Assembly (NCBI GenBank): GCA_023250585.1
Contig: JAHFAK010000072.1
Coordinates: 1 to 12,179 of the forward strand
Direction: 5' to 3'
Source of the DNA: Deltaproteobacteria bacterium
Lineage (GTDB): Bacteria; Bdellovibrionota_F; JAHFAK01
Length of the DNA stretch: 12,179 nucleotides
Part shown: positions 935-11,952 of the stretch, in pieces
Layout: the number at the start of each line of letters is the position of its first letter
How positions within the stretch are numbered: the stretch's first letter is position 1
Program-made: the position numbers and the translations under genes
Notes under the pieces: generated by a model
The model's input: only the letters and a program-made list of their open reading frames with translations
Told to the model about the DNA's origin: nothing
Database searches by the model: none

Positions 935-1892
935 ACAAATGACATGCTATCTTTCTTTTATTATGCTCTTTTAATTCAGGTAATTCTTTTTCACAACGGT
1001 CGAATTTTTCTTTACAGCGCGGATGGAATTGGCATCCTGTTGGTCTATGGGCAAGATCAGGAACAAGCCCAGGAATCGAAGGTAATTCCGTACGATGTTT
1101 GGTATTCGAATAGTTTTCAGGTAATGCGGCCAAAAGCGCTTGTGTATACGGATGCTCAGGGCGGAGAATAATGTCTTCGGTCTTTCCCATTTCCATAATT
1201 TGTCCGGCATACATAACCATAACTCTATTTGCCATATGTGCCAGAAGCCCAATATTATGACTAATCAATATCATTGCCATTCCAAATTCTTTTTGCAGTG
1301 ATTGCAGGAGTTTTAAAATTTGAGCCTGTATCGTTACATCGAGTGCTGTCGTTGGTTCATCTGCGATGAGTAATTGAGGCCGAGTAGCAATTGCCATTGC
1401 TATCATGATTCTCTGACACATTCCTCCCGAAAGCTCATGAGGATAAGAATCTAATCGTTCGTGTGCTTCAGAAATACCGACATGTTTGAGAAGTTCTATG
1501 GCTCTTTTTCTCCATCCTTTTTTTTTGTTATGTTCAGCTCGCATAATAGATTCTCGAAGTTGAAACCCAATAGTAAAGCTAGGGTTCAAGCTTGTCATGG
1601 GATCTTGAAAAATCATGGTAATATCTTTTCCGCGCAGATTTCTTTTTTCTCGATGTGATGCATGCAACAGATCTCGATTTAAAAATGAAAGTTGTTGTGC
1701 CTCGAGAGAACTAAAAGGCGGTAATAAATCTAAGAGCGCATAGCTTGCCATGCTTTTTCCACAACCTGACTCCCCGACAATACCGAGAACTTCTCCTTCG
1801 GTAAGAGAGAAACTTATATTATCAACGGCACTCAGTGAGCCTTTCAGAGTTTCTATACGAACAGTTAAATTTTTTACTTCTAATAATGGCAT
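906..1892 (-). CDS. dppD: Dipeptide ABC transporter ATP-binding subunit DppD
   Basis: Second ATPase of the dipeptide importer, pairing with DppF under the DppBC permease. From the ATG at 1890-1892 the product is 328 residues, close to E. coli DppD (327). Motifs: Walker A GESGCGKS (40-47), Q-loop Q96, signature LSGGM (154-158), Walker B with D178-E179, and switch His212 in ISHN, where Asn replaces the more usual Asp. Four C-terminal cysteines (287, 293, 300, 317) have the same spacing as in the neighbouring DppF. The frame is open a further 35 codons upstream to 1997, but that stretch lies inside a palindromic element and has no family similarity, so the inner ATG beginning MPLLEVKNLT is preferred. 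No Shine-Dalgarno precedes it; the 12 bases between the start and the hairpin are AT-rich. The hairpin separates it from dppC and could lower its expression. Confidence 0.93.
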   Translation of the reverse strand: MPLLEVKNLTVRIETLKGSLSAVDNISFSLTEGEVLGIVGESGCGKSMASYALLDLLPPFSSLEAQQLSFLNRDLLHASHREKRNLRGKDITMIFQDPMTSLNPSFTIGFQLRESIMRAEHNKKKGWRKRAIELLKHVGISEAHERLDSYPHELSGGMCQRIMIAMAIATRPQLLIADEPTTALDVTIQAQILKLLQSLQKEFGMAMILISHNIGLLAHMANRVMVMYAGQIMEMGKTEDIILRPEHPYTQALLAALPENYSNTKHRTELPSIPGLVPDLAHRPTGCQFHPRCKEKFDRCEKELPELKEHNKRKIACHLYDPPSTKLT

Positions 1893-1904
1893 AAATATTT
1901 GCAC

Positions 1905-2028
1905 ATACGCAACGACATAACGAGCAGACCAAGGCGCGACGAAATCAAGGAATGAGGCGTATATGACAATACGCCTCAATTCCGAGATGAGGAGCAACGA
2001 AGGTATGCGACGTTATGTCGTTGCGTAT
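1905..2028. repeat. 124-bp long imperfect hairpin element between dppC and dppD
   Basis: The terminal arms are perfect 18-bp inverted repeats: ATACGCAACGACATAACG at 1905-1922 and its complement at 2011-2028. A central stem of 10 bp (1953-1962 with 1969-1978) closes on a 6-base loop, and the sequence between is partly complementary, so the whole 124 bases can fold into one long stem. It fills almost the entire 138-base dppC-dppD gap, beginning 2 bases after the dppC stop and ending 12 bases before the dppD start. No T-tract follows on the dpp-sense strand, so it is not a standard intrinsic terminator. It shares internal motifs at matching spacing with the element at 8530-8651. A REP- or MITE-like element affecting mRNA stability or ATPase-subunit expression is the likely reading. 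Confidence 0.9.
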
Positions 2029-2030
2029 AG

Positions 2031-2903
2031 TTATCTTTTCAATTTTGGATCAAACGTATCACGTAATCCATCTCCGAATATATTAAATGCAAGTACGGTA
2101 ATGAAAATACAAAGGCCAGGAAGCGTAACAAGAATCGGTGAGCTTTCAATAAAGGGCCGTGCATCAGAGAGCATTGTTCCCCATTCGGGAATCGGTGGCT
2201 CCGCGCCCAATCCTAAAAAGCCAAGTGCTGCCGCGCATAAGATTGCATCGCTGAATCCAAGTGCGCTTTGTACAATTATAGGCGCAAGACAGTTTGGTAA
2301 GATAGTTGTAAACATCTGTCTCAGATGACTTGCTCCCATCGTGCGAGATATAATGACATAATTTTTATTTTTTTCGGCCATAACTTGAGCTCTCATAAGA
2401 CGCATAAAATGAGGTAATTCAGCTACGCTTACGGCGATAATGGTATTTGCAAGGCTTGGGCCAAGTACTGAAATAATAACAATAGCAAAAAGCACTGATG
2501 GCAGAGCCATAATGATATCATTAATACGCATAATGAGACTATCAATGGATCCACCAAAATATCCGGCAGCTAATCCTAGAATACCGCCGATACTCAATGA
2601 GAGCACTACCGTAAAAAAACCGATTCCTAATGAAATTCGTGACCCATAGATGAGCCGAGATAAAAGATCACGGCCCACATCATCTGTTCCTAATATAAAA
2701 TAATTATGTGTATATTCAGAAAATGGAGGAAGCCGAAAAGCATTTTGAAAAATTGTATCAGAAGCATAGGGTGCAAGAAGGTTGGCACAAAGGGCTACGA
2801 GCATAAAAAAAGCAATGATAATAAATCCAAGAAGAGCGCCTTTGTGGTGTATGAATTGTAAACTGAATTCTTTTAGAGAGCTTGTTTCTGTAGTATCATT
2901 CAC
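2031..2903 (-). CDS. dppC: Dipeptide ABC transporter permease DppC
   Basis: Inner-membrane channel subunit that forms the translocation path with DppB. The 290-residue product (E. coli DppC is 300) has an N-terminal OppC-type segment with a membrane helix at about 24-45, the periplasmic-loop motif LGTDDVGRDLLSRL (71-84), and further helices around 90-115, 130-150, 205-232 and 255-277. The ATPase-contact (EAA) loop lies at about 177-204. The C-terminus, ending DPKLKR, matches the family closely. The start is a GTG at 2901-2903 that overlaps the dppB stop as GTGA; the nearby ATG at 2897-2899 is out of frame. This 4-base overlap indicates translational coupling with dppB. The gene is followed almost immediately by the 124-bp hairpin. 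Confidence 0.95.
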   Translation of the reverse strand: MNDTTETSSLKEFSLQFIHHKGALLGFIIIAFFMLVALCANLLAPYASDTIFQNAFRLPPFSEYTHNYFILGTDDVGRDLLSRLIYGSRISLGIGFFTVVLSLSIGGILGLAAGYFGGSIDSLIMRINDIIMALPSVLFAIVIISVLGPSLANTIIAVSVAELPHFMRLMRAQVMAEKNKNYVIISRTMGASHLRQMFTTILPNCLAPIIVQSALGFSDAILCAAALGFLGLGAEPPIPEWGTMLSDARPFIESSPILVTLPGLCIFITVLAFNIFGDGLRDTFDPKLKR

Positions 2904-3913
2904 GTTTGTTTTCTCATCTTTGGATTAACAATAGCATACGTTGTATCCACTAAAATATTAATCATGATGATCATGCTTGCAATAATAACAATACCTCCTT
3001 GGATAACAGGATAATCTCGTTGAGTCACACTGAGTACGAGCCATCTTCCAATGCCTGGCCATGAGAAAATAGTTTCTGTAAGGATTGCTCCGGTAATAAT
3101 GGAACCAAAAGCAAGTCCAATAACGGTGATTACAGGAATAAGCGCATTTCGAAGCGCATGGATTCCAATTACTCTCATGTTTGTCAATCCTTTTGCATGC
3201 GCGGTGCGAATATAATCTTCTTTTAAAATCTCCAGCATACTCGAGCGTGTCATACGGGTTATAACCGCTAATGGCAAAGTTCCCATAACGATACCTGGTA
3301 GTATAAGATGTTTAAGAACGTCAATAAATGCAGGCATTCCTTCGCCTCTAAGCCATACATCAATGAGCATGAAACCTGTTATAGGTTCAATATCATACAT
3401 AAGATTCATACGCCCTGAGACCGGGAGAATATGTATGTGCACGGAGAAAATAATGATGAGTACAAGACCCCACCAAAATATGGGCATTGAATATCCTGCA
3501 AGTGAAGTAAAAGAAGTAAAGTAATCAAAAAATGAATTTCTTTTGACCGCTGCACATATTCCGAAAGGCATGCCAACAGTAATTGCAAAAAGCAGGGCAA
3601 TAATGCCAAGTTCAAGTGTTGCAGGCAAACGTTGGAAGAATTCATCAACGACTGGACGTTTGGTAATTACTGAAGTCCCAAGATCTCCTTGAAGGCCTTG
3701 ATAAATGAAAAGAAAATACTGTGTGATTAATGGTTTATCAAATCCAAGATTTGCGGTCATTTCTTTGCGTAATTCTTCTGATACACTGCGCTCACCTAAA
3801 AGTAAAGTGATTGGATCTCCAGGTGCGAGACGGATAAGCGAGAATGCAATGATTGTAATTCCGAAAAAAGCAATGAGAAGAACTACTATACGTTGTGAAA
3901 GGTATCGAAACAT
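2900..3913 (-). CDS. dppB: Dipeptide ABC transporter permease DppB
   Basis: Inner-membrane permease subunit, 337 residues (E. coli DppB is 339). It has the typical OppB-type N-terminus with a helix at about 9-29 followed by the conserved APGDP (30-34). A block of helices spans about 98-160, including GYSMPIFWWG (140-149). The EAA loop that docks on the ATPases is at 231-260 (EDYIRTAHAKGL, then the HALRNALIPV block), and the segment ILTETIFSWPGIGRWL precedes the last helix. Its start shares one base with the dppA stop (TAATG on the minus strand), so dppA, dppB and dppC are almost certainly cotranslated. Strong full-length resemblance to DppB makes dipeptide, rather than nickel or long-oligopeptide, import the best assignment. 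Related Dpp systems also carry delta-aminolevulinate or heme. Confidence 0.95.
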   Translation of the reverse strand: MFRYLSQRIVVLLIAFFGITIIAFSLIRLAPGDPITLLLGERSVSEELRKEMTANLGFDKPLITQYFLFIYQGLQGDLGTSVITKRPVVDEFFQRLPATLELGIIALLFAITVGMPFGICAAVKRNSFFDYFTSFTSLAGYSMPIFWWGLVLIIIFSVHIHILPVSGRMNLMYDIEPITGFMLIDVWLRGEGMPAFIDVLKHLILPGIVMGTLPLAVITRMTRSSMLEILKEDYIRTAHAKGLTNMRVIGIHALRNALIPVITVIGLAFGSIITGAILTETIFSWPGIGRWLVLSVTQRDYPVIQGGIVIIASMIIMINILVDTTYAIVNPKMRKQT

Positions 3914-5514
3914 TATTCCTGTAAATCTACTCCATAGAATCTATCTCTTCCAAATGGATCAATTTTGTAACCTACAACTTTATTTGACATTGCAACTGAA
4001 ACTTTTGAATGGGCAAGTGTTACCCAGGGTGCTTCGTCATGGAAAATTTTTTGAGCTTCTTTATATTCAACAATACGTTTATCCAGTTTATCTGTTTTTT
4101 TTGCTGCAATAAGTTTTTCATCAAATTGAGTATTGCACCATCGGGCTCGATTAGCTCCACCGGTTTTTGCATCGCAACTCAAGTTAGTGTAAAGAAAATT
4201 ATCCGGATCGCCATTATCACCGGTCCAACCCATTTGAAGTAACTCATGTTCACCATTTTTTGATTTTTCCAAATAAGTTGGCCAGTCGTATTGTACGAGC
4301 GTTGCTTTAATGCCAATTTTAGCAAGATCACTTTGCATCATCTCTCCCATTTTTTTGCCTTGTGGATTATAAGGACGCGAAACAGGTAATACCCAGAGCT
4401 TTGTCTCAAATCCTTTTGGATATCCTGCTTCTTTGAGAAGTTTTTTTGCACGTTCAGGGTTGTATTCATAATCTTTAATTTCATCATTATACGACCACAT
4501 GCTTGGTGGGATAGGATTCTTAGCAACACGCGCATTTCCTAAATAAATAGCCGTAATGTAGGATTTTTTATCAAGCGCATGATTAATAGCTTGTCGAATG
4601 AGACGATTATCAAATGGTTTTTTATCTACGTTCATGGCGAGGTAACCAACATTCAAGCCTTCTTGTTCCATAACGCGCAAGTTTTTATCTTTTTTTATTG
4701 CATTCAAATCAGTAGGAGATGGATAGGCGGCAAAATGACATTCCCCAACTTTGAGTTTTTGATAACGTACACTAGCATCGGGAGTTATTGAAAACACAAG
4801 TTGGTCAAAAGGCGACCTGCCTTCAAAGTAATCTTTATTTACTTCATAACGAATAATTGTATCTTTTGTATAGCGTTTGAAAATAAAAGGGCCTGTGCCG
4901 ATAGGTTCCGTATCAATGTGTTCTTTTTTCCCAATTTTAATTAAGTAATCTCCATATTCTTTAGAAAGAATACTTGCAAAATCCATGGCAAGGTTTGCTA
5001 AGAAGGGAGCTTCAGGTTTTGTAAGAATAAATTTAACGGTATAATCATCGACCTTGATAATATCTTTGATGAGCTCTCCCATTCCCATTGAATTGAAATA
5101 CTCATAGGTTCCGCCATTTACAAGGTGATACGGATGATCTTTTTTTCGCTGCCGATCAAAAGTAAAGAGAACATCATCGGCATTGAAATTACGAGTTGGT
5201 TTGAAATATTTTGTGGTATGCCAATGTACATCATTGCGTAAATAAAAGGTATACGTTAATCCATCGACAGAAATTTTTGGTTTTTCTTTTGCGAGTGAAG
5301 GTTCTACTAATGTAGTGCCTACTTTAAAATCAACAAGTTTATCATATACTGGTATTGTAGCATTAAATGTTGTGCCATCAGTTGCAAGTTGGGGATTGAA
5401 AGAACTTGGGCTGCCTTCTGAACAGTAAATAAACGTTTTATCTTTTGCATGAAGAGATATAAAAGATGATATGCATACTATAAAAGATGCGCTCAATAAT
5501 AGTTTTATTTTCAT
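3913..5514 (-). CDS. dppA: Periplasmic dipeptide-binding protein DppA
   Basis: Captures peptides in the periplasm and delivers them to DppBC. The 533-residue precursor (E. coli DppA 535) begins with a Sec signal peptide, probably cleaved after Ala23; no lipobox is present, as expected for a soluble Gram-negative periplasmic protein. The mature part is a family 5 solute-binding protein. Conserved blocks include YCSEGSPSSFNPQL (30-43), ADDVLFTFDRQ (112-122), GTGPF (206-210), PVSRPYNP (377-384) and GWTGDNGDPDNF (429-440). The last two correspond to the regions holding the Arg and Asp that hold peptide termini in E. coli DppA, so peptide binding is likely retained. Cysteines 31, 259, 447 and 460 match the positions of the two disulfides of E. 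coli DppA. It is the first gene of the operon, with an excellent Shine-Dalgarno, consistent with binding protein being made in excess. Confidence 0.96.
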   Translation of the reverse strand: MKIKLLLSASFIVCISSFISLHAKDKTFIYCSEGSPSSFNPQLATDGTTFNATIPVYDKLVDFKVGTTLVEPSLAKEKPKISVDGLTYTFYLRNDVHWHTTKYFKPTRNFNADDVLFTFDRQRKKDHPYHLVNGGTYEYFNSMGMGELIKDIIKVDDYTVKFILTKPEAPFLANLAMDFASILSKEYGDYLIKIGKKEHIDTEPIGTGPFIFKRYTKDTIIRYEVNKDYFEGRSPFDQLVFSITPDASVRYQKLKVGECHFAAYPSPTDLNAIKKDKNLRVMEQEGLNVGYLAMNVDKKPFDNRLIRQAINHALDKKSYITAIYLGNARVAKNPIPPSMWSYNDEIKDYEYNPERAKKLLKEAGYPKGFETKLWVLPVSRPYNPQGKKMGEMMQSDLAKIGIKATLVQYDWPTYLEKSKNGEHELLQMGWTGDNGDPDNFLYTNLSCDAKTGGANRARWCNTQFDEKLIAAKKTDKLDKRIVEYKEAQKIFHDEAPWVTLAHSKVSVAMSNKVVGYKIDPFGRDRFYGVDLQE

Positions 5515-5517
5515 AGT

Positions 5518-5524
5518 ACCTCCT
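5518..5524 (-). promoter_or_regulatory. Strong Shine-Dalgarno of dppA
   Basis: AGGAGGT on the minus strand, three bases before the ATG at 5512-5514. It is the best ribosome binding site in the window and fixes the dppA start. It contrasts with the poor sites before dppD, dppF and the histidine kinase. Confidence 0.85.
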
Positions 5525-5552
5525 AATTATGACCTTAAAAAAGAATAAGTTT

Positions 5553-5580
5553 AGTATACAGAATTATTCTGCTGAGTAAA
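5553..5580 (-). promoter_or_regulatory. Predicted sigma-70 promoter of the dpp operon
   Basis: On the minus strand a -10 box TATACT (5553-5558) is preceded by a 16-base spacer and a -35-like TTTACT (5575-5580; four of six consensus bases). It lies about 40 bases upstream of the dppA start in a 113-base divergent gap, and it is the only good candidate there for the minus strand. Assigned by eye; no transcript data. Confidence 0.5.
5559..5571. promoter_or_regulatory. Operator-like palindrome inside the dpp promoter spacer
   Basis: CAGAATTATTCTG is a perfect 6+1+6 inverted repeat lying wholly within the spacer between the predicted -35 and -10 of dppA. A repressor dimer bound here would block the promoter. 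The regulator is unknown; the site could equally be chance in AT-rich DNA. Confidence 0.4.
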
Positions 5581-5597
5581 GGCATTATGTTGCCTTT
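5578..5597. promoter_or_regulatory. Small stem-loop in the dppA/kinase divergent region
   Basis: A 7-bp perfect stem AAAGGCA (5578-5584) and TGCCTTT (5591-5597) encloses a 6-base loop, with a T run to 5599 on the plus strand. It overlaps the predicted dpp -35 box. It could stop antisense transcription toward the kinase gene or be a protein-binding site; neither is shown. Confidence 0.35.
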
Positions 5598-5618
5598 TTA
5601 ACGCTGTTTTGTTATTTT
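5590..5618 (+). promoter_or_regulatory. Tentative promoter of the kinase-regulator pair
   Basis: TTGCCT (5590-5595) and TATTTT (5613-5618), four of six consensus bases each, are separated by 17 bases on the plus strand. If used, transcription would begin only a few bases before the kinase ATG at 5628, giving a nearly leaderless message. That would fit the absence of any Shine-Dalgarno there. Weak evidence. Confidence 0.3.
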
Positions 5619-5627
5619 TTCTCACTT

Positions 5628-7094
5628 ATGATTCCCAAGGAGTTTAATAAAAAAATTCGGAATAAACTCATTGTTACTTTTTTGGTTCCTCTTTTGATCA
5701 TCATTCTTATTTCCGGAGTAATTATTTATTTTATTGCATATCGTGGGCTTGAAGAGGAGTTGAGCCGTAAACTGATTTCAATTGGACTTGCGGCTACTAC
5801 ACGATTTCACGCTGATAGTATAGCATTGCTCGATCCTGGCGATGAATCAACTCGTCTTTATCGCAGTACTCAACAAAAACTTGCCGATCTTTGTAAGCTC
5901 ACAACGATTAATAGGATTTATCTTTTTAAACCAGACAATACTTCATTAATTGATACAGAAAATGATATTAAGATTGGATACAAATATAGCCATCATGAGT
6001 TTGATCAGAATGAACTTTCGTATGCTTTATCTGAATTCCAGCCGATTTCTTCAATTCTCTTTCAAGGGCAAGATGGTGAATATTATAAGACAGGCTATAT
6101 TCCCATTAAGACAAGCAGCAATGGAGCAATTATTTTAGCAATTCAGGGGAATGCTGCGTTTTATAAAACGCTCTCGAGCCTGCGCAGAAATATGTTTTTT
6201 GCTATTTTCGTGGTTATACTTTTAATAGTTACGGCATCACTCGTCTATTCTCAAAATATAGTTTCTCCCATTAAAAATCTTGTCGAAGCTGCGATGAAAA
6301 TTTCAGGAGGGGAACTTACTTCAGAAGTGAATATTAAGACTAAGGATGAAATAGGCTTCTTGGGACAAAAATTTAATCAAATGAGAAAAAATGTTCTTGA
6401 ACGAGATCAGCGTATGCAGATGATGCTTCGAGGTATTGCTCATGAAGTGCGTAATCCTTTGGGTGGATTGGAGCTTTTCTGTGATTTAGCGGATAAAGAA
6501 ACTGACCATCGTGCAGTGAAAAGGCATTTAAAAAAAATTAGAGAAGAAACTGCCACGATTAATCGCATTGTTAATGAGTTTTTAGATTTTGCGCGTACTA
6601 TTGGTATTACGGTCAGTAAAATTTCATCTGCAGAATTTCTTGAAGAAATTGGATTTCATATAGCACATGATATTGAAGTAGATCATATTTTATGGAGTTA
6701 TACACTCACCGATAAGGACATTATCTTTGAAGCTGATCGAGAGCATTTCAAACGTGTCTTTTTGAATGTTATTAAAAATGCGCTTCAGTCATTGGATAAA
6801 CCCGAAAAAAGAATGAGTGTTTTGGTCTCTCGTGATATATTGAATAATGATACTATTCCAACGGATGCTGTTAAATTTATTATTGAGGACAATGGCATGG
6901 GAATTAAAGAGGATGATATAGAAGAAGTATTTAAACCATTTTTTACAACAAAAGAAAAAGGCAGTGGCTTGGGGTTGGCATTTGTTAAAAAAGTTATTAA
7001 TGAGCATCATGGTACTATTCATATTGAGAGTAAGTTGAAAAAAGGAACGAAAGTAGTTATGGTGCTTCCTATTGAGTATAAAACTCAGGTATAA
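5628..7094 (+). CDS. Membrane sensor histidine kinase (NtrB/ZraS-like)
   Basis: Sensor of a two-component pair; on stimulus it should autophosphorylate on His272 and pass the phosphate to the regulator encoded next. The 488-residue protein has a first membrane helix at about 13-37, an extracytoplasmic sensing region at about 38-186, a second helix at about 188-207, and a HAMP linker at about 208-260. The H-box is AHEVRNPLGG (271-280). The ATPase core carries the N-box around N380-N384, the G1 motif DNGMG (421-425), F-box FKPFFTT (435-441) and G2 GSGLGL (445-450). All catalytic motifs are intact. The sensing region is not a family I can name, so the ligand is unknown. No Shine-Dalgarno precedes the ATG; a purine-rich AAGGAG lies just inside the gene (5637-5642) but has no ATG, GTG or TTG suitably placed behind it. 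It is divergent from dpp. Confidence 0.93.
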   Translation: MIPKEFNKKIRNKLIVTFLVPLLIIILISGVIIYFIAYRGLEEELSRKLISIGLAATTRFHADSIALLDPGDESTRLYRSTQQKLADLCKLTTINRIYLFKPDNTSLIDTENDIKIGYKYSHHEFDQNELSYALSEFQPISSILFQGQDGEYYKTGYIPIKTSSNGAIILAIQGNAAFYKTLSSLRRNMFFAIFVVILLIVTASLVYSQNIVSPIKNLVEAAMKISGGELTSEVNIKTKDEIGFLGQKFNQMRKNVLERDQRMQMMLRGIAHEVRNPLGGLELFCDLADKETDHRAVKRHLKKIREETATINRIVNEFLDFARTIGITVSKISSAEFLEEIGFHIAHDIEVDHILWSYTLTDKDIIFEADREHFKRVFLNVIKNALQSLDKPEKRMSVLVSRDILNNDTIPTDAVKFIIEDNGMGIKEDDIEEVFKPFFTTKEKGSGLGLAFVKKVINEHHGTIHIESKLKKGTKVVMVLPIEYKTQV

Positions 7095-7095
7095 A

Positions 7096-7101
7096 GAGAG
7101 G
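7096..7101 (+). promoter_or_regulatory. Ribosome binding site of the NtrC-type regulator
   Basis: GAGAGG lies five bases before the ATG at 7107, inside the 12-base gap after the kinase stop. It supports this start and cotranscription of the pair. Confidence 0.7.
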
Positions 7102-7106
7102 TATAT

Positions 7107-8528
7107 ATGGCAAGTATTTTAGTTATTGAAGATCACGATACAATGCGAGAGGGATTATATTGCAGCATTACTCGTATGGGGCATTTTGTAGTTGCGACAA
7201 AAAATGGTGCTCAAGGAATTGCGACTTATAAACAGAATGTCGATGATTTTGATTTCGTTATTACTGATCTAAAAATGGATGACAAAGATGGAATGACAGT
7301 ACTCAGAGAGCTTCGACACATTAATCCAGACGTGCTTATTATGATTATTACTGGGTATGGCACTATTGAGACGGCAGTAGACGCAATGAAAGAGGGAGCA
7401 TATGATTTTATCACGAAACCATTTTCATATGAACTTTTAAAAACTAAAATAGATTCGGCATTGAAGTTGCATGAACTCAAAAAGGAAAATGCAAAACTGT
7501 CAAATTTTAACTCATATCTTCGCCATAAAGAAAAAGAAGAATTCAATTTCGATGAGATTGTCGGTACTTCGTCTATTCTTGGAGGAGTGAAAGAAACCAT
7601 TAAAAAGGTTGCTCCCACTCATTCTACTGTGTTAATTAGTGGAGAAAGTGGCACGGGGAAAGAGCTTGTAGCCCGTGCTATTCATTACAATAGTGAGCGG
7701 CGAAACCAACCTTTTATAAGTTTTAGTTGTAGCGCCTTGGCAGAAAGCCTTCTCGAAAGTGAACTTTTTGGTCATGAACGGGGAGCTTTTACTGGAGCTG
7801 TTAAAGGGAGGCTCGGACGCTTTGAACTGGCAGATAGAGGGACTATTTTTTTAGATGAAATTGGAGATCTTTCTTCAACTGTCCAATTAAAATTACTACG
7901 AGTACTTCAAGAACGTGAATTTGAAAGGGTAGGAGGCACCCGTACTATTAAAGTCGATGTGCGTATTATCTGCGCAACAAATAAAAATTTGCAGAAATTA
8001 ATTGAGGATGGAACCTTCAGAGAAGACTTATATTATCGGATTCATATTATCCCAATTGTTTTACCGTCTTTACGGGAACACAAAGAAGATATCCCCGCAT
8101 TGGCTCATCATTTCCTCAACCGCCTTAATGAGCGATTTAAAAAAAATATTACGACAATAACGCCCAAGGCGCTGCAGGTACTTTCAAATTATAAATGGCC
8201 AGGAAATATACGAGAATTAGAAAATATTATTGAGCAAAGTTACGTTCTTTCAAATGGCTCAGTTATTGATGAAATGGATCTGCCGTGGAGTTTGAAAGAT
8301 ATCCGTAATAGAGATTTATTACTTGTTCCTCAAAGCGATCTTTCCTTGCCCGATGTTTTAGATAATCTTGAAAAACAACTCATTGAAAAAGCGTATGTGA
8401 AATCACGAGGAATTAAAGCAGAAACTGCACGTTCTCTTGGTATCAAGACAAGTGCTCTTTATTATAAATTAGAAAAATATGGACTCTTAGAAAAATATGG
8501 CTTTAGAGACAGTGAGATTGCCGAGTAA
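7107..8528 (+). CDS. NtrC-family sigma-54-dependent response regulator
   Basis: Cytoplasmic transcription activator that should remodel sigma-54 RNA polymerase when phosphorylated by the upstream kinase. The receiver domain (about 1-120) has the acidic pair E8-D9, phosphoacceptor D54, T82 and K104, all canonical. The AAA+ domain (about 150-385) has Walker A GESGTGKE (179-186), the sigma-54 contact loop GAFTGA (226-231) and Walker B FLDEIGD (248-254); an arginine-rich REDLYYRI segment follows. A Fis-type helix-turn-helix closes the protein (about 436-468, with ARSLGIKTSALYYKL). At 473 residues the length is normal for the family. It could be called NtrC, ZraR or AtoC-like; the exact subgroup and target genes cannot be told from sequence alone. 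Its function implies that rpoN exists elsewhere in the genome. A hairpin element begins one base after its stop. Confidence 0.95.
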   Translation: MASILVIEDHDTMREGLYCSITRMGHFVVATKNGAQGIATYKQNVDDFDFVITDLKMDDKDGMTVLRELRHINPDVLIMIITGYGTIETAVDAMKEGAYDFITKPFSYELLKTKIDSALKLHELKKENAKLSNFNSYLRHKEKEEFNFDEIVGTSSILGGVKETIKKVAPTHSTVLISGESGTGKELVARAIHYNSERRNQPFISFSCSALAESLLESELFGHERGAFTGAVKGRLGRFELADRGTIFLDEIGDLSSTVQLKLLRVLQEREFERVGGTRTIKVDVRIICATNKNLQKLIEDGTFREDLYYRIHIIPIVLPSLREHKEDIPALAHHFLNRLNERFKKNITTITPKALQVLSNYKWPGNIRELENIIEQSYVLSNGSVIDEMDLPWSLKDIRNRDLLLVPQSDLSLPDVLDNLEKQLIEKAYVKSRGIKAETARSLGIKTSALYYKLEKYGLLEKYGFRDSEIAE

Positions 8529-8529
8529 A

Positions 8530-8651
8530 GGAACCTCTACAAAGGCCCATCTGCATCGTTGCGCGCAAAACCACAATCCTCACATACTACCCCAGTATGC
8601 TCCGGTTGCGGCTTTGCGTGCGCCTCGCATCTGGACCTTTGTAGAGGTTCC
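8530..8651. repeat. 122-bp long imperfect hairpin element after the NtrC-type gene
   Basis: Terminal arms are perfect 16-bp inverted repeats, GGAACCTCTACAAAGG at 8530-8545 and its complement at 8636-8651. A central stem CATACT/AGTATG (8583-8588 and 8594-8599) closes on a 5-base loop, with partial pairing between. It starts one base after the regulator's stop codon and ends 65 bases before the next gene. No T-tract follows, so termination would have to be unconventional. Internal motifs TCGTTGC (8556-8562), GCGCCT (8620-8625) and CTG (8631-8633) recur at near-identical spacing in the element at 1905-2028. The sequence is more GC-rich than its surroundings. Confidence 0.9.
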
Positions 8652-8691
8652 CCGAAATTATGAGTTTTTCTAAAGAGTCCTAAAGATTATG

Positions 8692-11793: not shown

Positions 11794-11821
11794 TGTCATC
11801 CCCGCGAAGGCGGGGATCCAG
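11794..11821 (+). repeat. Palindromic repeat, 'tgtcatcccc...ggatccag' type, copy 1
   Basis: A 28-base unit with a perfect 8-bp stem ATCCCCGC/GCGGGGAT (11798-11805 and 11810-11817) around a GAAG loop. This small repeat type is scattered through many bacterial genomes. It is GC-rich against AT-rich surroundings and forms an inverted pair with copy 2, 103 bases away. Confidence 0.85.
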
Positions 11822-11924
11822 TGTCTTTCTCTCATTAAAGCTTCATACACTTCGTCATGTACTTCTTCTACTACGAGCAAGCTATAAACACTATATTGTT
11901 TCATATCTTTGAGCTACATTATTT

Positions 11925-11952
11925 CTGGATCCCCGCCTTCGAGGGGATGACA
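11925..11952 (-). repeat. Palindromic repeat, 'tgtcatcccc...ggatccag' type, copy 2
   Basis: The reverse complement matches copy 1 at 27 of 28 positions (G to T at the eleventh base), so the internal stem is slightly weakened. Facing copy 1 in inverted orientation, the two could fold into a large cruciform or RNA hairpin with a 103-base loop. Confidence 0.85.

Follow-up and report, generated by a model that had tools for sequence, protein, structure and literature searches.

Two hairpins in a deltaproteobacterial contig as probable members of a widespread, MITE-like palindromic superfamily whose core is conserved and whose ends are exchangeable

Bacterial MITEs such as Correia/NEMIS, RUP, Chunjie, and QMITE2 are short, non-coding elements with terminal inverted repeats and target direct repeats (PMC2229807, PMC10969869, PMC5896051). 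Rickettsia palindromic elements (RPE), found in Rickettsia and Wolbachia, measure 105-146 bp and are either intergenic or fused in frame into proteins (PMC2229807). According to the accessible part of its description, a family of short RNA elements in Geobacter is multi-copy and intergenic, carries the central palindrome GRCGTAGCGCTGCTACGCC, and has relatives in other Deltaproteobacteria (PMC2700814). REP/BIME sequences are abundant extragenic palindromes of 20-40 bp, present in many phyla and marked by a fixed GTAG or CGTC tetranucleotide tag (PMC3733652).

The window analyzed here (the whole stretch of 12,179 nucleotides of contig JAHFAK010000072.1, from a Deltaproteobacteria bacterium, genome G000) contains two hairpins. 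With a probability of roughly 0.75, both are members of a widespread, non-autonomous, MITE-like superfamily of palindromic mobile elements in which the core is conserved and the ends can be exchanged. As in bacterial MITEs, many copies are intergenic and near gene 3' ends, and there are terminal inverted repeats and target repeats. Known MITE families, however, are bound to a species or clade and defined by their fixed ends, whereas here the opposite holds: the ends are replaceable, and about a dozen phyla have one conserved core in common. The unit also contains an extra inverted end copy, unlike those families. RPEs are similar in size and placement, in that palindromes of about 105-146 bp lie in frame in proteins (here L038, L041, L042, and the RecG gene of L288); RPE families, in contrast, are known from Rickettsia and Wolbachia. 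The Geobacter palindrome fits the central hairpin of our elements, a likeness by palindrome alone; the accessible part of that paper presents a regulatory RNA of one genus and describes neither ends, direct repeats, nor a phylum-wide core (PMC2700814). Judging from that part, the Geobacter family may be one member of the superfamily that was described on its own. Identity with REP/BIME was rejected, because the elements here are 122-157 bp long, have variable arms, and carry YTAR or AT-rich flanks instead of a tag. A literature search, with most subscription journals outside its reach, found no paper on a superfamily with a cross-phylum core or on its spread among phyla, and searches with core and arm sequence strings gave no relevant match.

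The two window elements, each named after the family to which it belongs, consist of the following features.

8526..8529, no strand: left 4-bp direct repeat TAAA of the family B element, sharing bases with the stop codon of an NtrC-type regulator gene
8530..8545, plus strand: family B left arm, the terminal repeat GGAACCTCTACAAAGG, 16 bp
8546..8635, plus strand: family B core, with TCGTTGC at 8556-8562 and GCGCCT at 8620-8625
8583-8599, plus strand: central hairpin CATACT/AGTATG within the family B core
8636..8651, plus strand: family B right arm, a perfect inverted copy of the left arm
8652..8664, plus strand: family B spacer CCGAAATTATGAG, outside the hairpin and conserved in many family B copies
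8665..8680, plus strand: degraded third arm copy of family B, TTTTTCTAAAGAGTCC, the far end of the mobile unit
8681..8684, no strand: right 4-bp direct repeat TAAA of the family B element
2011..2028, minus strand: family A left arm ATACGCAACGACATAACG, 18 bp, directly after the oppC stop codon
1923..2010, minus strand: family A core
1905..1922, minus strand: family A right arm, a perfect inverted copy of the left arm
1878..1904, minus strand: degraded tail of this family A copy, with a putative boundary

From arm to arm the hairpins measure 122-124 bp. Perfect inverted repeats of this size were found at 12 window positions and at none in each of 10 shuffled windows. The order given in the sequence-only reading (arm, 10 bases, TCGTTGC, 56 or 57 bases, GCGCCT, 4 or 5 bases, CTG, 2 bases, arm) matches both elements in coordinates, strands, and spacings, and the arms of 18 and 16 bp are each perfectly paired and absent from shuffled windows. 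That reading also proposed a common core. Aligned alone, the two window cores are only weakly similar, with 78 of 2000 shuffles as good, so this claim needed more data. We therefore searched the window with a model (R3) of 26 copies from genomes of other phyla, none of them from G000. Only 8545-8635 (plus strand) and 1923-2010 (minus strand) were significant, with E-values of 1.1e-19 and 7.4e-10, the next best match having an E-value of 1.2. The shared core is real, and it is the profile rather than the pairwise alignment that makes it secure. The further claim that the arms are unrelated is correct for the two window copies (the families are 50% identical, no better than shuffled) and incorrect inside each family, where arms are conserved. 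The start codon of oppD (ATG at 1892-1890) lies in the tail of the family A unit, so the element may supply the translation start region of this gene.

A search of G000 with the core model, the arms left free, retrieved at least 65 full or nearly full core copies; the strict core pattern matched 24 copies, and its reversed control none. Used as queries, the two window elements each retrieved their own multi-copy family, A or B. Conservation of the left arm, right arm, and core is 0.84, 0.80, and 0.86 in family A and 0.79, 0.85, and 0.78 in family B. The arms are thus conserved like the core inside each family, an outcome that the sequence-only reading had named as refuting it; between families and genomes they differ, yet pair. 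Other arms occur on further copies in G000 (L043, L125, L126, L132/L134, and L133). The gene context favors 3' ends, with 16 copies between convergent and 2 between divergent gene pairs (p 0.0013). Short forms without a core (L224, L233, and L248) may be either ancestral units or the products of deletion at short repeats. In one family B copy (L228, G000 C98:1375-1434) the arms are intact, and most of the core is deleted between two TGCATC repeats. Another palindromic repeat, beginning TCCTGCTTCGTTCCTACGG, sits near the centers of six family A copies in G000 (L045, L046, L048, L049, L051, and L054) and is apparently bounded by the short direct repeat CGCTGCG.

The impression that similar cores recur elsewhere was borne out: 30 of 386 broadly sampled genomes contain related cores with other arms. 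Eleven candidates were scored per genome, so copy counts are minima. The matches listed for the strict pattern come from Rokubacteria, Deltaproteobacteria/Thermodesulfobacteriota, Nitrospirae, Methylomirabilota, Chlamydiae, Bacteroidota, Peptococcaceae and Selenomonadales, Chloroflexi, Gemmatimonadetes, Chlorobiota, Kaiserbacteria, and Beta/Gammaproteobacteria; named records with the core represent about a dozen phyla among the matches listed. These assignments may include binning errors of MAG contigs, which can affect single contigs but not the overall phylum picture. The central palindrome CGTAC/GTACG is present in nearly all strict-pattern copies among the matches listed, even though the pattern itself did not include it. 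Two strict core patterns had no match in 2.9 million viral contigs, in contrast to the many copies on chromosomes, and a search of plasmids with one element gave no match. In some Beta/Gammaproteobacteria and Geobacter (L279, L302, L317, and L324), an extra module of 12-14 nt lies between the end GGCTGTTGAAAAAC and the core.

The mobile unit is longer than the hairpin. Its parts, in order, are an arm, the core, an inverted arm, a spacer, and a degraded third copy of the arm, and it is immediately flanked by 4-bp direct repeats; it is about 151-157 bp long and, like a MITE, has end copies at both termini and no transposase gene. In families A and B alike, the right arm is followed by a conserved spacer and then by another, degraded copy of the arm. 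Other phyla share this three-arm layout, as in CTAGCAGGCTGCTGAAAAA-core-TTTTTGAGCAGCCTG-spacer-TTTTTCAGCAACCTG-YTAR; the third arm is absent in some genomes (G034, G246). Target-site direct repeats like those of MITEs were found in family B and in units with the CAGG-type end sequence, CAGG(C/A/T)TGCTGAAAAA, although they are imperfect or absent in more than half of the copies. In family B, the 4-mers at both ends are identical in 11 of 27 copies, including the window copy with its TAAA at 8526-8529 and 8681-8684, versus 10% of swapped pairs (0 of 10000 permutations as good). In the CAGG-type units, YTAR flanks 14 of 17 left ends and 15 of 17 right ends; the two flanking 4-mers are identical in 8 of 17 units, versus 25% for swapped pairs. 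These YTAR repeats are, we presume, reminiscent of the IS5 family. The CAGG-type end sequence occurs at 154 sites in G389 (control 0) and at 390 in a Methylomirabilota genome. In G389, CAGG..TGAAAAA ends with YTAR flanks also enclose unrelated contents (L373, L375, and L376), and the ends and contents are thus exchangeable. One of these contents is the palindrome TGTCATTCTGAGGAGC...GAAGAATCTC.

Copies inside genes and differences between species point to movement. Insertions in reading frames are found in a long protein (L038) and in signal-peptide starts (L034, L041, and L042), and a further copy lies within RecG of a Kaiserbacteria MAG (L288). When the unit is removed and one TA is kept, intact signal-peptide starts are restored in L041 (MKHIILFCIVLILVGCAKR) and L042 (MKKKYSIILLLFSLPQFVGA). 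The flanks of L034 joined with TA are not in frame, so the family A duplication is ambiguous between TA and TATA. Among five species of one genus (G246 and G392-G395), one site is filled in G246 alone, and the four sisters have neither arms, core, nor hairpin there. Each of the five species also has many dozens of copies of a different, very abundant repeat family (L422:5212-5356 in G246). DDE_Tnp_1 genes were considered as candidates for a matching autonomous element. In a search of five genomes for DDE_Tnp_1 only, the genes in G000, G352, and G390 lacked these ends, and G388 and G389 yielded no such gene; this outcome counts against the mobile-element explanation.

The most plausible reading of the arms is that they are the terminal repeats of a transposon. 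As terminal inverted repeats they would be used for cutting and inserting the unit, which a transposase would move in trans. The inverted copy of the left end would close the hairpin around the core, and the third copy would mark the far end. End sequences would differ by lineage, and the same core would have come to lie between several unrelated end sets. Pairing of the arms would persist either because the enzyme has to recognize both ends or through recopying of one arm from the other in the hairpin.

The sequence-only reading predicted that arms pair while varying, and they do. In 189 copies, the mean pairing score is 13.8 for a copy's own arms, compared with 8.2 for arms swapped among copies of one genome and 5.5 for arms swapped across genomes; a score of 11 or more is reached by 84% of copies and by 3% of between-genome swaps. 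In 21 family A and related copies, double changes are present in 13 of 18 arm pairs. This pattern is what would be expected if the arms are renewed by copying, as that reading suggested, with hairpin template switching rewriting one arm from the other. In the same 21 copies, 39 cells changed on both sides versus 4 with a standard change on one side only, and the outer pairs are almost never broken. Moreover, at a second site in the G246 genus, the orthologous copies of four species differ in the inner helix and inner arm, both of which still pair. The pattern is not specific to copying, however, since a few active source copies whose two ends co-evolve would produce it as well, and the comparisons are among copies and species rather than along one replicating lineage. 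Arm renewal by copying, which is compatible with the mobile-element explanation, is possible, at odds somewhat below even.

From the outside inward, the arms are followed by an imperfect outer stem, an inner helix, another conserved internal loop, and finally the CGTAC/GTACG hairpin. The outer core stem has conserved loop strands (in the family B form, CATCTRC..CGTT and GCCTYGYATCTG). The inner helix is variable and co-varies, with double changes in 9 of 9 pairs. A structured RNA, either a riboregulator or a terminator-like element with a stem P1 free to vary, could account for the co-variation in two helices and for the strong folds, which are found on both strands; likeness between copies would then reflect RNA function and not DNA movement. 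In 175 of 189 copies, folding is about 10 kcal/mol more favorable for the complement strand, whose loops are purine-rich, but the loops are conserved, so this bias is nearly one observation and not 175. The Geobacter elements, whose central palindrome is similar, were likewise called a short RNA (PMC2700814). Nevertheless, we consider an RNA origin of the likeness unlikely. The orientation to transcription is not clear (38 versus 23 co-directional, p 0.07), a bias too weak for an RNA gene, and the preferred sense strand is not the better-folding strand. Intermediate pairs changed on a single side are few in the arms. Strand-specific G-T tolerance, a possible sign of RNA, speaks neither for nor against it: G-T and A-C pairs number 15 versus 33 in the arms and 14 versus 40 in the inner helix, counts that are non-independent. 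Neither window element has a match in Rfam at E-values up to 1, with the gathering threshold not reached, and no Rfam family fits. The direct repeats, in-gene insertions, and lineage-specific gains also argue against this explanation.

Least probable is the other origin offered by the sequence-only reading, that only the core is mobile and enters the loops of hairpins already present, which become its arms: a family A core with unique, perfect 16-17 bp arms (L043), the unique arms of two copies 3' of tRNA genes (L126 and L133), and arms that continue into the flanks (L032) would fit it, but arms are common to family members, the 4-bp direct repeats enclose the arms, core, and third arm copy as one block, and the in-gene copies and species differences do not support it, the four sister species having no arms at the site gained in G246.

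Taking the hairpins as members of a mobile-element superfamily with exchangeable ends, we suggest more tentatively, and with less than even confidence, that the folded DNA core, with its two conserved internal loops and central hairpin, is a chassis that spans phyla and to which unrelated transposition systems each added their own ends. The core and not the ends would then be the lasting unit of selection, perhaps recognized as a single-stranded DNA hairpin or as RNA by a broadly conserved host factor. The pattern of replaceable ends around a conserved middle would allow the shuffling of cargo among transposition systems to be tested and would unite many unnamed multi-copy palindromes as one superfamily; it raises the question of what job the core performs.

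The window contains a third, different inverted repeat at 11794-11952 (TGTCATCCCCGCGAAGGCGGGGATCCAG, with a loop of 103 nt). It has a sub-threshold Rfam match to WsnRNA46 (34.4 bits versus a gathering threshold of 65.3), and its end motif occurs at one further site among the fetched loci, on contig C100 of G000.
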